The notes under the pieces are model-generated. The model saw nothing but the letters and a program-made list of their open reading frames with translations, was not told the origin of the DNA and searched no databases. A DNA stretch of 64,000 nucleotides from Chelativorans intermedius (GTDB taxonomy: Bacteria > Pseudomonadota > Alphaproteobacteria > Rhizobiales > Rhizobiaceae). Where the stretch lies: assembly GCF_025398255.1 (NCBI RefSeq), contig NZ_JAODNW010000017.1:62001-126000 (forward strand). Direction: 5' to 3'. Positions 21,271 to 26,543 of the stretch are shown piece by piece. The first letter of the stretch is position 1; each line of letters starts with the position of its first letter. The translations under genes and the position numbers were made by a program.

Positions 21271-21915
21271 CTATTTGCCTGCGATCCCCCGCAGGGCGCT
21301 TTCGCCCCACACCTGCCGCAGGCGCGCGTCGCGTCCGCAGCCTTCCCGGTAGCCCTTGTAGGCAGCGGCCTTGGTGACGAAGCCGAAGCGGGTGAGGATG
21401 CGCTCGTTGCTGCGATAGTAGTCCTGGTGGTAGTCCTCGGCAGGCCAGAAGGCCGTCGCCGGCAGGATGGGCGTGACCACGGGCTGGCCAAGCTCGGCCT
21501 CGGCCGCCTTCTTCGCTTCCTCGGCTGCCTTCTTCTGTGCCTCGTCGAGCACATAGATGGCCGTGGTGTAGCCGTGGCCGCGGTCGCAGAACTGGCCGCC
21601 GCCATCGGTGGGGTCGACGGAGTGGAAGAAGACGTCGAGCAGGTGCGCATAGCTCACCTGGCTGTCGTCATACCTGATCTCGACCGCCTCGCGGTGGCCT
21701 CCGGCCTGGTAGTTGCGATAGCTGGGGTTTCGCGCCTCTCCGCCCGTATAACCGGAGACGGTGGAGAGCACGCCTTCCACCTTGTCGAAATCCGCCTCCA
21801 CGCACCAGAAGCAGCCGCCGGCGAAAATGGCGGTCTTCGTTTCCGCCATGGCCGGCAAAGGCCCGGCGAGCGAGGCGGCAAGCGCGAGTGCGGCGACAAG
21901 AGATGAGCGGATCAT
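21271..21915 (-). CDS. msrA: Peptide-methionine (S)-S-oxide reductase MsrA, exported form
   Basis: 214 residues. A signal peptide (hydrophobic residues 5-20, cleavage after AMA at ~24) precedes the MsrA domain, which opens with AIFAGGCFWCVEADF; GCFWC at 34-38 carries the catalytic Cys. Further family blocks are GYTGG, YRNYQAGGHREAVEI, and the QFCDRGHGYTTAIY and AEDYHQDYY regions. It reduces methionine-S-sulfoxide in oxidised proteins, here probably in the periplasm. A Cys in REGCGRD may be the resolving one. It is a stand-alone gene with no MsrB fusion. Confidence 0.95.
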   Translation of the reverse strand: MIRSSLVAALALAASLAGPLPAMAETKTAIFAGGCFWCVEADFDKVEGVLSTVSGYTGGEARNPSYRNYQAGGHREAVEIRYDDSQVSYAHLLDVFFHSVDPTDGGGQFCDRGHGYTTAIYVLDEAQKKAAEEAKKAAEAELGQPVVTPILPATAFWPAEDYHQDYYRSNERILTRFGFVTKAAAYKGYREGCGRDARLRQVWGESALRGIAGK

Positions 21916-21992
21916 GGCGGGTCTCCCTTTTCCGCGAGAAGACCTACCCCTTCGGCGGGGAATTTGAAATTCAATCCGCTACACGCTTGCGT

Positions 21993-22017
21993 GAGCGGCG
22001 GTTCACATCCGCCGCTC
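21993..22017 (-). terminator. Hairpin across the sdhB stop codon
   Basis: A 9-bp perfect stem (GAGCGGCGG / CCGCCGCTC, loop of 7) overlaps the last codons and stop of sdhB. No proper T-run follows on the minus strand, so it may only weakly end the sdh transcript. Confidence 0.4.
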
Positions 22018-22782
22018 GACCATCATCTTCTTGATTTCGGCGATCGCCCTGGCCGGGTTCAGCCCCTTGGGGCAGGCCTGCGTGCAGTTCATGATGGTGT
22101 GGCAGCGATAGAGCCGGAAGGGGTCTTCAAGATTGTCGAGCCGCTCGCCGGTGGCCTCGTCGCGGGAGTCGATCAGCCAGCGATAGGCCTGCAGAAGCAC
22201 CGCCGGCCCCAGATAGCGCTCGCCGTTCCACCAGTAGCTGGGGCACGAGGTCTGGCAGCAGAAGCACAGGATGCACTCATAGAGCCCGTCGAGCTTGGCA
22301 CGGTCCTCGTGACTCTGGCGCCATTCGGTGGCCGGCTCCGGCGTCACCGTCTGCAGCCAGGGCTGGATCGAGGAAAGCTGGGCATAGGGCACGGAGAGAT
22401 CGGGCACCAGATCCTTCACCACGGGCATGTGCGGCAGGGGATAGATGCGCACCGCATCCCTGATCTCGTCCATGCCCTTGGTGCAGGCGAGCGTGTTCGC
22501 CCCGTCGATGTTCATCGCGCAGGAGCCGCATATGCCCTCGCGGCAGGAGCGGCGGAAGGTGAGGGTGGGGTCCACCTTGTTCTTGATCCAGATGAGCCCG
22601 TCGAGAACCATCGGCCCGCAATCGTCCAGATCGACGTAGTAGGTGTCGACGCGCGGGTTCTCCTCGTCGTCCGGAGACCATCGATAGATGCGAAACTCGC
22701 GCAGCCTCGTGGCCCCTTCGGGCTTGGGCCAGGTCTTGCCCGGCTTGACCTTTGAATTCTTGGGGAGGGTGAGTTGGACCAT
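22003..22782 (-). CDS. sdhB: Succinate dehydrogenase iron-sulfur subunit SdhB
   Basis: 259 residues. The 2Fe-2S ligands lie in CREGICGSC, with the fourth Cys in LACTKG; the 4Fe-4S and 3Fe-4S ligands are in [17 protein letters not shown] and [17 protein letters not shown]. It passes electrons from SdhA FAD to quinone at the membrane anchor in complex II. The last gene of the operon; the vapD-like gene stops 10 bp before its ATG (22782). Length and motifs are entirely normal, so the inserted neighbour has not damaged it. Confidence 0.98.
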
Positions 22783-22792
22783 TTCGGATCGC

Positions 22793-23131
22793 CTATCCGT
22801 TTGCTGCCTGTTCGATTGCCGGTCCCAGATCGTTGTTTTCCTCGATGCGAAGCATCCGCATGTCCCGGACCGAGGGGCGGAACCAGGGAAAGCGACGGGT
22901 CAAATCCTGGACCGCGAGCACGCAGCTCACGGCATTGACCGTCTCGTTTCCGAAATAGACACTTCCCTGCTGCCAATCAAAACCATGTTTACGCAACTCG
23001 TTGCGGATGTCCGCATATGCGTTCCTCCATGAGGCATTGCCGTAGCTCTGCTCAAGCGTCTGGGTATCGAGATCAAACGTTATCGCATACATGGTTCCGC
23101 GCCGTCCGCTGTTATGCCCCATCATGCTCAT
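22793..23131 (-). CDS. vapD: VapD-family endoribonuclease (Cas2-like fold), inserted in the sdh operon
   Basis: 112 residues. From Met14 the sequence is a full Vap[10 protein letters not shown] strand (Asp20 equals the conserved Asp7 of H. pylori VapD), [26 protein letters not shown], and the diagnostic [16 protein letters not shown]. VapD proteins are ribonucleases with a Cas2-like ferredoxin fold and, in Haemophilus, the toxin of VapXD. The ATG at 23131 has AAAGGA 7 bases upstream; Met at 23158 or 23092 are alternatives. It lies 38 bp after sdhA and 10 bp before sdhB. Hand-counted GC of 22921-23100 is ~52% against ~72% in a sampled stretch of sdhA, pointing to recent acquisition. No VapX-like antitoxin is visible next to it. 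Confidence 0.88.
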
Positions 23132-23169
23132 GGCGACGTCCTTTCGCCGAAGGTTCATACAACCCCAAT

Positions 23170-25002
23170 CTAGTATACCCGCTTCTTCGGTGCGATCTTT
23201 TCGGGGTCGATGCCGCCCTCTTCGGGTTTGAGCAGAGGCTCCGTGTGGACCGGCCGATAGGCGAGGCGCACTCGGCCTTCCTCGTCCACGTGAGCAAGCG
23301 TGTGCTTGCGCCAGTTCCTGTCGTCGCGCTCGGTAAAGTCCTCGCGGGCATGGGCGCCGCGGCTTTCCTTGCGGGCTTCGGCCGAGTAGACGGTGGTGAT
23401 GGCATTGGCCATCAGGTTCTCAAGCTCCAGCGTCTCCATCAGGTCGGAGTTCCAGATCATCGAACGGTCGTGGACCTTGATGTCGGAAAGCCCGCTCCAG
23501 ACCTCCGAGATGCGCTTGCAGCCCTGCTCCAGCGTCTCCTGGGTGCGGAAGACGGCGGCGTCCTCCTGCATGGCGCGCTGCATCTTCTCGCGCAGGGCGG
23601 CCGTCGGCGTGCTGCCGTTTGCATGGCGGATGCGGTCGAAACGGTCCATGATCTTCTCGCATGCCGCCTTGTTCAGCGGCGGCACCTTGGCGTCCCTGTC
23701 CACCACCTTGCCGGCACGAATGGCGGCGGCGCGGCCAAACACCACGAGGTCGATCAGCGAGTTGGAGCCGAGGCGGTTGGCGCCGTGCACGGAGGCACAG
23801 GCCGCCTCGCCGACGGCCATCAGGCCGGGGGCTACGGCATCCGGGTCGTCGCGGGTCGGGTTCAGCACCTCGCCCCAGTAATTGGTCGGGATGCCGCCCA
23901 TGTTGTAATGCACCGTGGGCAGCACCGGAATCGGCTCGCGGGTCACATCGACCCCGGCGAAGATGCGCGCCGATTCGGCAATCCCCGGCAGGCGCTCGTG
24001 GATGACCGCCGGGTCCAGATGGTCGAGGTGGAGATAGATGTGGTCCTTCTCCTTGCCCACGCCGCGCCCTTCGCGGATCTCCACCGTCATGCAGCGAGAG
24101 ACCACGTCGCGCGAGGCGAGATCCTTGGCCGAAGGCGCATAGCGCTCCATGAAGCGCTCGCCCTCGGAATTGACGAGGTAGCCGCCTTCGCCGCGCACGC
24201 CTTCGGTGATGAGACATCCGGCGCCATAGATGCCGGTGGGGTGGAACTGAACGAACTCCATGTCCTGCAGCGGCAGGCCGGCACGCGCGATCATGCCGTT
24301 GCCGTCGCCCGTGCAGGTGTGCGCCGAGGTGCAGGAGAAATAGGCGCGCCCATAGCCGCCGGTCGCCAGCACCACCATCTTGGCGGCGAAGCGGTGGATG
24401 GTGCCGTCCTCGAGGTTCCACGCCACCACGCCGGTGCACGCGCCGTCCGTCATGATGAGGTCGATGGCGAAATACTCGATGAAGAACTGCGCATGGTTCT
24501 TCACCGACTGGCCGTAGAGCGTGTGCAGAATGGCGTGGCCCGTGCGGTCGGCAGCGGCGCAGGTGCGCTGCACCGGCGGGCCGTCGCCGAAATTCTGCAT
24601 GTGGCCGCCGAAGGGCCGCTGATAGATCCGGCCGTCCTCGGTGCGCGAGAAGGGCACGCCATAATGCTCCAGCTCGTAGACGGCGGCCGGCGCCTCGCGC
24701 GCCAGATATTCCATGGCGTCCACGTCGCCCAGCCAGTCGGAGCCCTTGACCGTGTCGTAGAGATGCCACTGCCAGTGGTCGGGCCCCATGTTCTGCAGCG
24801 AGGCGGCAATGCCGCCCTGGGCCGCCACGGTGTGCGAACGGGTGGGGAAGACCTTGGTGATGCAGGCCGTCTTCAATCCCTGCTCGGCCATGCCGAGCGT
24901 GGCGCGCAGGCCGGCGCCGCCGGCCCCCACCACCACCACGTCGAAGGCATGATCGACATATTCATAGGCCGCACCGGCCTTCTTCACAGTTGCGTCAGCC
25001 AT
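23170..25002 (-). CDS. sdhA: Succinate dehydrogenase flavoprotein subunit SdhA
   Basis: 610 residues. FAD-binding Rossmann [14 protein letters not shown] (residues ~23-36), the covalent-FAD His57 in [11 protein letters not shown], the substrate-site segment [23 protein letters not shown] and the catalytic Arg region are present. It oxidises succinate to fumarate in complex II on the cytoplasmic side of the inner membrane. It follows sdhD by 7 bp and precedes the inserted vapD gene. Assembly may be helped by the SDHAF4-type gene at 41991 in this window. Confidence 0.98.
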
Positions 25003-25009
25003 CGTGGTT

Positions 25010-25393
25010 TCAGGCTCCGAATGCGATCTTGAGCAGGGCGTAGAGGGCGGCCGCCCCGAGAAGGAGGGGGAAGAAGACGTTGAGCACGAGGAGGGCGATC
25101 TTCATGCCCTCGCCATGCACATAATCCTCGATGACGACCTGCATGCCGAGCCGCATGTGATAGAGCGCGGAGAGAACCGCCAGGGCAATGAGCAGCGTCA
25201 CCACGGGCTGGGCGAGCGCGGCGCGCACCTCTTCGTAAGGGGCGCCGTTATAGGCGATGACGAAGCCGACGAAAAACAGCACGAGCGGCACGTTTGCAAT
25301 CGCCGTCAGCCGCTGGCGCCAGAAATGCTCCGTGCCTTCCCTGGCCGAACCGAGACCGCGGACACGGGCAAGCGGCGTGCGCATGTCGGCCAT
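25010..25393 (-). CDS. sdhD: Succinate dehydrogenase membrane anchor SdhD
   Basis: 127 residues with three membrane helices ([55 protein letters not shown]). The heme-ligand His is in [18 protein letters not shown], a conserved SdhD sequence in alphaproteobacteria. It anchors complex II and forms part of the quinone site. Start and stop abut sdhC and sdhA. Confidence 0.94.
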
Positions 25394-25394
25394 C

Positions 25395-25802
25395 TCAGAA
25401 CCCTCCCCTCAGCATGTAACCGGCAATCCAGACGACCAGCGTCAGGATGATCGAAGCGATCAGATTGGCGGTGGCGATCCGCGTGGCGGTGCGCTTCTCC
25501 AGTCCGCGCGCAGTGTCCCACACGAGATGGCGGATACCGCCCAGAAGATGGTGAAGAAGCGCCCAGGTGAAGCCGAAGAGCACCAGCCGGCCGAGAAGCG
25601 AGCCGAACAAGGCGTTGACGAGGTCGAAGGCCTCGCGCGAGCTTGCGGCCGCCACAAGCCAAACGACGAACAGCACCATGCCGAAATAGAGCGCTCCGCC
25701 CGTGATGCGGTGCAGGATCGACATGGCCATGGTGGGCGTGAAGCGGTAGATCTGCAAATGCGGCGAGACCGGCCTCGCCCGGGTGGCTGTAGACTTGCTC
25801 AT
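25395..25802 (-). CDS. sdhC: Succinate dehydrogenase cytochrome b556 subunit SdhC
   Basis: 135 residues. The N-terminal [26 protein letters not shown] signature contains the quinone-site Ser and Arg; three helices follow, and [13 protein letters not shown] includes the heme-ligand His. First gene of sdhCD-A-vapD-B. ATG 25802 has GGGGAAG upstream; the frame is open further upstream but lacks family similarity there. The promoter should lie in the 249-bp gap to the GNAT gene, which also holds a run of 12 C. Confidence 0.94.
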
Positions 25803-26009
25803 GGCTTCCCCGTTCTGTCGCCGGGGGATCCGGGCCCTGCGGGCAGACCCCGCGTGGCCCAGGCCTCCGGCAGGTCGCTTTCTAATGCGCTTTTCGCAGT
25901 GCGTCAAAGCCGCAGAAGCGATCCGCCGGGCCTGAATCGATTTGAGACGGGAAAGCCGGCTCAGTTCTCCATCGCCCGCCTGCGCCGCCCCGCGGATGGG
26001 TGAGGTCCG

Positions 26010-26021
26010 CCCCCCCCCCCC
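26010..26021. repeat. Homopolymeric C12 tract
   Basis: Twelve consecutive C in the gap between the GNAT stop (26052) and sdhC. It is outside any gene. Such runs are prone to slippage and to sequencing error. Confidence 0.8.
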
Positions 26022-26051
26022 GACATGCCGGTTCCGAAGAGCCCCGCCGGC

Positions 26052-26543
26052 TCAGCGACCGGCAAAGCGAATCACGTGGCTGGTCCAGTCGGCCGGTGCC
26101 GCCACCTGCCCAAAGAGCCGCCGCCCTTCCTCGGGCCGGCGCGGCGCGTTCAGCACCAGCCGCGTCCAGCCCCGTTCCTCCGCCTGGTCGCCCACCACGT
26201 CGATCAGGGCCCGGGCGATGCCCTTGCCGCGATGGTCGTGATGCACATAGACATGTTCCAGCAGCCCGTAGCGCATACCGGAGACGGGGTCGGGCAGGTC
26301 GTAGAAGATGGCGAAGGCCACCAGCGTGCCGTCGATGCGCGCTCCGACCACTTCCGCCACCCGGTCCTGCAGCAGCGTTTCGGCATAGAAGGCATCGGGC
26401 CGGCGCGGCGCACCGCGCATGAGCGATTGCGTGTAGGCCGCAAGAAGCGGTGCCAGCGCCTGCGCATCCTTCAGCCGCAGCGGCGCGATGTCGATCCTGG
26501 GCTTGTCGCTCATGGCATCGGGATCCTTCTTCTTCGCCATCAT
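26052..26543 (-). CDS. GNAT-family N-acetyltransferase
   Basis: 163 residues. Acetyl-CoA binding motif A is visible in GLLEHVYVHHDHRGKGIARALIDVV (the R-G-x-G-I/A pattern), preceded by the VAFAIFYDLPDPVSG strand pair and followed by RGWTRLVLNAPRRPEEGRRLFGQ. It probably acetylates a small amine or protein N-terminus; the substrate is unknown. Start 26543 (MMAKKK) or an internal ATG 11 codons on are both possible. It is divergent from the exported-protein gene at 26666, with a CtrA box between them. Confidence 0.85.
   Translation of the reverse strand: MMAKKKDPDAMSDKPRIDIAPLRLKDAQALAPLLAAYTQSLMRGAPRRPDAFYAETLLQDRVAEVVGARIDGTLVAFAIFYDLPDPVSGMRYGLLEHVYVHHDHRGKGIARALIDVVGDQAEERGWTRLVLNAPRRPEEGRRLFGQVAAPADWTSHVIRFAGR

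Follow-up and report, generated by a model that had tools for sequence, protein, structure and literature searches.

The succinate dehydrogenase (sdh) operon in the window analyzed here, 64,000 nucleotides of a Chelativorans intermedius contig, carries an intact vapD gene at the junction of sdhA and sdhB. Comparison with related genomes shows this junction, unlike the sdhC-sdhD and sdhD-sdhA junctions of the same operon, to be a hot spot that takes unrelated cargo, mostly in the operon direction. We consider it probable from these comparisons that vapD was acquired horizontally at this hot spot, that it is maintained by selection and expressed from the sdh mRNA, and that it was probably moved by recombination in the flanks.

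The vapD gene and its product

The locus reads, on the minus strand, sdhC, sdhD, sdhA, vapD, sdhB and msrA, with families assigned by Pfam and NCBIfam (Table 1). An earlier note on this DNA had described a complete vapD between sdhA and sdhB, in the same direction and with gaps of 38 and 10 bp, and this is confirmed by the coordinates and by both family collections. Three candidate starts are available, at 23158 (the longest ORF), 23131 and 23092, of which the ATG at 23131 is the most plausible; it is preceded by AAAGGA and yields these gaps to sdhA and sdhB, respectively. Because predicted ribosome pairing is alike at the three starts (-5.9, -6.5 and -5.7 kcal/mol), the choice also rests on the conserved leader of the protein. 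The GC content of vapD is 55.8%, compared with 66.6% over all of sdhA and 63.8% for sdhB, and its GC3 is 68% versus 88% for both neighbors. The lower GC reported earlier therefore stands, although the ~72% then counted in one part of sdhA overstates the average of the gene. This composition is compatible with a foreign origin. An assembly artefact is unlikely, since a homolog is found just 3' of sdhA in 20 other family genomes and in many named species.

Table 1. Features of the sdh locus (positions in the window)
Feature	Positions	Strand	Basis or remark
sdhC	25395-25907	minus	Pfam Sdh_cyt; sdhC-sdhD junction used as control
sdhD	25010-25393	minus	NCBIfam TIGR02968; sdhD-sdhA junction used as control
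sdhA	23170-25002	minus	TIGR01816, 965.7 bits; left side of hot spot
vapD (predicted GHN-type VapD/Cas2-like nuclease)	22793-23131	minus	112 aa; preferred start 23131
GHN motif of N-terminal leader	23111-23119	minus	17-row alignment; H and N invariant
Asp20 (counted from 23131), conserved VapD core Asp	23072-23074	minus	Alignment
Ser57, second conserved active-site residue	22961-22963	minus	Alignment
sdhB	22003-22782	minus	NF004616, 370.5 bits; right side of hot spot
Inserted segment, 387 bp	22783-23169	minus	12 bp at the same place in 6 of 7 congeners

The protein matches Pfam CRISPR_Cas2 (3.1e-06, 27.7 bits, above the gathering score of 23.8) and NCBIfam VapD (6.7e-18, 64.9 bits, under the 100-bit cut-off) and, judged by its sequence, is a VapD-family relative outside the curated NCBIfam equivalog group. 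Six PDB sequences match as well, all titled VapD or virulence-associated protein D, the best being 3ui3 (3e-17), which we take to be the stand-alone VapD HP0315 of Helicobacter pylori; 5dyr matches at 7e-17. The VapD homology proposed in the earlier note is supported by these matches. The PDB alignments begin at residues 20 and 26, past the GHN leader, and PHROGs gave no match for the protein. The two catalytic residues of VapD are Asp and Ser (PMC11980593), which correspond, by our reading of the alignment, to Asp20 and Ser57. Asp is present at the first position in 107, and Ser at the second in 106, of 111 aligned copies, a set that includes duplicates and distant VapDs; the conserved acidic residue on which the earlier assignment had been staked thus aligns with the VapD core Asp. 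One sdh-linked copy (L020, genome G159) has lost the active-site Ser together with several other conserved residues and is probably decaying.

The N-terminal leader is the other conserved part of the protein. GHN or a near form (GDN, DHN) lies ~10-20 residues ahead of the VapD core in 73 of 80 named loci (the closest 80 of 235 relatives). The seven loci lacking it are L079, L084, L085, L087, L093, L097 and L101; of these, L085 and L097 are copies from Rhodobacteraceae that are linked to sdh. Since all four Gly codons are used (12, 11, 9 and 8 of 45 rows; 40 rows hold Gly and 5 have gaps), the motif is conserved as amino acids and not as DNA. It was absent from all 17 viral-contig VapDs, and among 402 plasmid records of VapDs the 30 hits listed align from residue 21-24 onward only. 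GHN thus looks like a feature of an alphaproteobacterial chromosomal VapD subfamily. There was no sign that it is a general leader of other proteins in this genome: a partial-codon pattern gave 5 hits, vapD among them, which is no more than its reversed control gave (5). Of 5708 ORFs called mechanically from the fetched DNA, 57 have GHN in the first 60 residues, and three of these were not text-filtered as VapD, namely L029 and L062, which are longer-frame VapDs, and one ORF in L284. Genome G547 has, besides the VapD gene at its sdhA-sdhB junction (L122), a second one elsewhere (L104), whose start region lacks GHN.

Occupancy of the sdhA-sdhB junction in relatives

Homologs of vapD were detected in 21 of 394 sampled genomes of the GTDB family, the own genome included, leaving 373 without; the 7 sampled congeners are all negative. 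Each of the 21 has the same strand as sdhA and follows it, with 11-917 bp between the end of sdhA and the point where the match begins, and for 16 of them the fetched 1.5 kb also contained sdhB. The search of sdhA-sdhB gaps suggested in the earlier note thus places vapD on the 3' side of sdhA in these family genomes, and finds other cargo there too. All 20 complete copies are open, the 21st being cut by a contig end; stops flagged by the search in L006, L011 and L013 leave the reading frame from the likely start intact. Profile searches matched 20 of 397 genomes across the order, 12 with sdhA or sdhB in the fetched flank, and 15 of 385 across the class, 2 with sdh (the own genome and L139); among the remaining matches are distant VapDs located away from sdh.

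A scan of named genomes gave 235 confirmed relatives, and the counts that follow concern the closest 80 of them and so lean to near relatives. Of these 80, 52 are at the sdhA-sdhB junction (50 with sdhA upstream and 2 with sdhB downstream on a cut contig) and span several alphaproteobacterial families; in L027 sdhA is upstream of vapD at a distance of 3.9 kb. The other 28 are largely from Sphingomonadales, with other Alphaproteobacteria and a few outsiders (Gemmatales, Phycisphaerales, Acidithiobacillus). In Sphingomonadales the GHN-type VapD mostly follows addB-addA rather than sdh: clustering of 19 loci with this order in the title found an addA-type gene in 13, an argJ-type gene in 10 and at least one of the two in 15 (families named by Pfam on one member of each). 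As Sphingomonadales carry GHN away from sdh, the motif hardly serves an sdh-specific purpose. The special tie between VapD and TCA flux envisaged earlier is not supported in that form, given these copies after addB-addA and the many unrelated genes at the same sdh junction. The addB-addA/argJ vicinity is a second conserved operon address for GHN-type vapD, and in one Sphingomonadales locus (L034, 4652-5348) the order is addB-addA-trxA-vapD.

Within the genus, the sdhA-sdhB gap is 12 bp in six of seven congeners and is an 877-bp segment in the seventh. In that congener a family 25 glycosyltransferase gene (L127, 627-1508) stands where the window has vapD. For the family we analyzed 135 sdhB loci, consisting of the 7 purposely chosen congeners, the window and other best matches, and 100 further stretches (up to 5 kb) that follow the order of the list except for 12 rows passed over by hand. 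Of the 135 loci, 126 had an sdhA; the gap was at most 60 bp in 84, 78-103 bp in 5 and over 250 bp in 37, with vapD in 5 of these 37 occupied junctions. Among the 100 further stretches, 87 held sdhC, sdhD and sdhA and 13 were unscored (8 of these had no sdhA in the stretch). In these 87 complete operons, inserts over 250 bp were present at 23 sdhA-sdhB junctions (Fisher p 4e-8 against sdhD-sdhA) and at 0/87 of each of the two sister junctions, which thereby act as built-in controls. The junction was occupied in 21 of the 58 genera in the 100 stretches and was mixed in 7 of the 29 genera sampled more than once.

The class sample, 60 of 97 matched genomes taken nearly in similarity order, gave the same kind of result: scored by position, inserts over 250 bp were seen in 9 of 58 sdhA-sdhB junctions and in 0/58 of either other junction, and with stricter scoring in 8 of 49 and none. 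Two of the class inserts are small (252 and 289 bp), and vapD was in none of the 8 strictly scored ones. Outside the class, in a sample that leans to one family, no insert over 250 bp was found in 24 loci, i.e., 19 scored stretches of 20 fetched (largest gap 129 bp) and 5 further loci. As for orientation, all mechanically called ORFs point with the operon in 28 of the 37 occupied family junctions, and the other 9 have at least one ORF on the opposite strand.

Pfam was run on 20 of the 96 ORFs of the occupied family junctions and on 9 class ORFs, and the gap was found to hold at least 12 unrelated protein families. The commonest cargo in the census, outnumbering vapD, is a DUF3052-like protein, mostly of ~145 aa (L175, L178, L212, L218, L186, L229, L247 and L173); these 8 proteins are related by BLAST and all are encoded between sdhA and sdhB. 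Family 25 glycosyltransferases (6 related, 5 in junctions with sdhA in view), VapD (5) and APP1-type phosphatases (5 related, 3 with sdhA in view) were also found, as were methyltransferases, a sulfotransferase, SUFU, a sulfatase, a protease inhibitor, a group 1 glycosyltransferase, CreD (2), DUF4258, DUF2442 and a PIN protein (L182), and several cargo ORFs had no match at all. In locus L165 a FitA-like ribbon-helix-helix gene (828-1070) precedes an ORF akin to the L182 PIN protein, by sequence a toxin-antitoxin pair within the same hot spot. The SUFU-domain protein is in the junction of L189 (3203-4051); this domain occurs in immunity proteins of polymorphic toxins.

Retention, repeated entry and movement of vapD

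Among 12 vapD copies the median dN/dS is 0.11 and the maximum 0.25 (dS was usable in 28 of 66 pairs and often close to saturation), which indicates purifying selection. Neither a sigma-70-like promoter nor a minus-strand terminator-like site was found in 21900-26100, and there was no Rfam match in 21900-26000. Transcription of vapD as part of the sdh mRNA, with translation starting at the gene's own ribosome site, is likely. The gene often ends at or over the sdhB start, as in translational coupling, and operons with vapD have a weaker ribosome-binding sequence ahead of sdhB, with a median of -5.0 versus -6.6 kcal/mol (p 2e-6; 37 distinct vapD-operon sequences from many families against 80 empty family junctions) and, within the family alone, -4.75 (n=14) versus -6.6 kcal/mol (n=80; p 0.0004). 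Translation of sdhB may thus depend in part on the end of vapD, which would aid retention of the gene, and the earlier suggestion that vapD is hard to lose without disturbing sdhB receives some support from the weaker site.

These features might also be expected if vapD were a selfish, orphan toxin locked into an essential operon, of no benefit to the host and rarely lost cleanly without harm to sdhB. The weaker sdhB site, the lack of an adjoining antitoxin gene, the decaying copy and the common occurrence of VapDs on plasmids agree with this explanation. We nevertheless find it unlikely: the protein is under strong purifying selection and GHN is conserved at the amino-acid level, whereas an inactive copy would work equally well as a trap, and empty sites are common, so that the site must often be restored or never filled.

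The history of the gene was examined by comparing VapD with SdhA. In the 42 loci whose genes are complete, namely the window and 41 named loci out of the 80, the pairwise identity of VapD hardly tracks that of SdhA (Spearman 0.17), whereas SdhA and SdhB vary together (0.63). In an IQ-TREE tree of VapD, 16 rows labeled Rhizobiaceae are split over several clades and a single clade is rejected (p-AU 2.4e-12), although this set was assigned from titles and is non-monophyletic in the SdhA tree as well (4 changes versus 7 in the VapD tree). Individual cases are therefore sharper evidence. Aliihoeflea aestuarii and Aliihoeflea sp. 2WW are sisters in SdhA (98), but in the VapD tree they are far apart, with starred branches between them. 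Rhizobium sp. CFBP 8762 has a rhizobial SdhA and yet a VapD that falls with Methylobacteriaceae (support 87/68 for the closest group and 94/81 once Salinarimonas is included). The quicker FastTree comparison puts 7 VapD splits, of 12 with support, at odds with a supported SdhA split; this measure is noisy, as 11 of the 24 SdhA splits with support are likewise contradicted by a supported split in SdhB. Since the VapD and SdhA trees disagree, different VapD lineages have entered the same junction more than once, with several entries in different host lineages.

The rarity of the gene (21/394) is a point against this reading in that repeated loss of an old gene would account for it as well, and the order sdhA-vapD-sdhB might be ancestral in Alphaproteobacteria and mostly lost, with VapD having a direct sdh role, e.g., trimming the mRNA between sdhA and sdhB. 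Such an origin is in keeping with the same location across several families and orders, the sdh linkage of all 21 family copies and the purifying selection. It is, however, improbable: many losses alone are disfavored by the tree conflict, at least 12 unrelated protein families occupy the same gap, GHN-type VapD of the same kind is located elsewhere in Sphingomonadales, and 373 of the 394 family genomes have no vapD. The idea of a dedicated sdh regulator is lowered likewise by the other junction cargo and by the non-sdh Sphingomonadales copies. Equally improbable is a toxin-antitoxin system whose VapX-, VapY- or VapW-like antitoxin is encoded elsewhere in the genome, for although three families of antitoxins are known to partner VapD toxins (PMC11980593), vapD has sdhA and sdhB as neighbors here and is the only VapD-like gene in the genome (E up to 0.001), so that no VapW is recognizable at that sensitivity.

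How a horizontally acquired vapD reached the junction may be judged from the flanks. There are no direct repeats in 22700-23300 around the insert, and transposition was discarded on this ground. Sites private to the window relative to its congeners amount to 28 of 401 within 200 nt of the junction and 34 of 994 farther away (p 0.006); such an excess was significant in none of the 7 congeners, and the one with the glycosyltransferase insert had a near/far ratio of 0.83, i.e., no excess. The nearest vapD-bearing relative, L022, matches 8 of 34 window-private sites in sdhB and 5 of 50 in sdhA, and because these are few, L022 itself is not a good donor. In same-genus pairs with one junction occupied, near-junction divergence had a median of 1.33 versus 1.16 for empty pairs (p 0.008; 24 versus 44 non-independent pairs, the window giving 6 of the 24). 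These data are a hint of recombination in the sdh flanks and no proof of it.

In the reading we favor, an intact VapD-family gene of an alphaproteobacterial GHN-leader subfamily would have entered horizontally between sdhA and sdhB, mainly by homologous recombination between the conserved 3' end of sdhA and 5' end of sdhB. Cargo could then be swapped between species at a fixed address, and if flank recombination moves it, an integrase, att site or tRNA is not needed. We infer that VapD is an active nuclease kept for some benefit such as a stress or phage response. It might act as a low-dose effector in stress or phage defense rather than as one half of a toxin-antitoxin system, and the GHN leader might serve binding or control; of these steps we are least sure.

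Relation to known systems and significance

The window protein shares the core sequence and the catalytic Asp and Ser with the VapDs of 3ui3 (HP0315) and 5dyr. Its GHN leader lies ahead of the alignments with them, and these two have not been described in a respiratory operon. With VapXD, VapYD and VapWD it has the VapD family in common, but no antitoxin gene adjoins it, as the earlier note had observed, its neighbors being sdhA and sdhB; it is not a VapXD-type pair. HP0315, too, is without an antitoxin (PMC11980593). In common with Cas2 it has a Pfam CRISPR_Cas2 match above the gathering score, but it matches VapD better, and its immediate neighbors are sdhA and sdhB, with no cas genes or CRISPR array alongside.

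Chromosomal integration hot spots and defense islands have fixed core flanks, empty sites in relatives and varied cargo. The sdhA-sdhB junction resembles them in all three, its cargo including a toxin-antitoxin pair. It differs from usual hot spots in its place within an operon, where it separates the genes for two subunits of the same enzyme, in often holding one or two small genes, and in that the window site lacks direct repeats. The usual places to look for hot spots are the gaps between operons, tRNAs and the vicinity of integrases. We found no open-licence publication that describes an sdh operon containing vapD or a hot spot at sdhA-sdhB.

A broader proposal, which we offer as tentative and, taken as a whole, rather doubtful, is that sdhA-sdhB serves Alphaproteobacteria as an operon-internal exchange address. 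Short cargo (toxins, toxin-antitoxin pairs, surface-modifying enzymes) would be swapped there between species by flank recombination and expressed from a central metabolic operon, with sdhB translation held hostage, and the GHN leader would replace an antitoxin as built-in control.

A 2025 census reported no specific neighbor for about half of VapDs, and neither "sdh" nor "succinate" occurs in its main text (PMC11980593); in the present set, a large group shares one highly specific neighborhood. The GHN leader offers a testable handle on the control of such stand-alone VapDs. If true, a hot spot between complex II subunits would explain how cargo has spread to a fixed address with no visible integrase, and would be a new class of place in which to seek horizontally moving genes.
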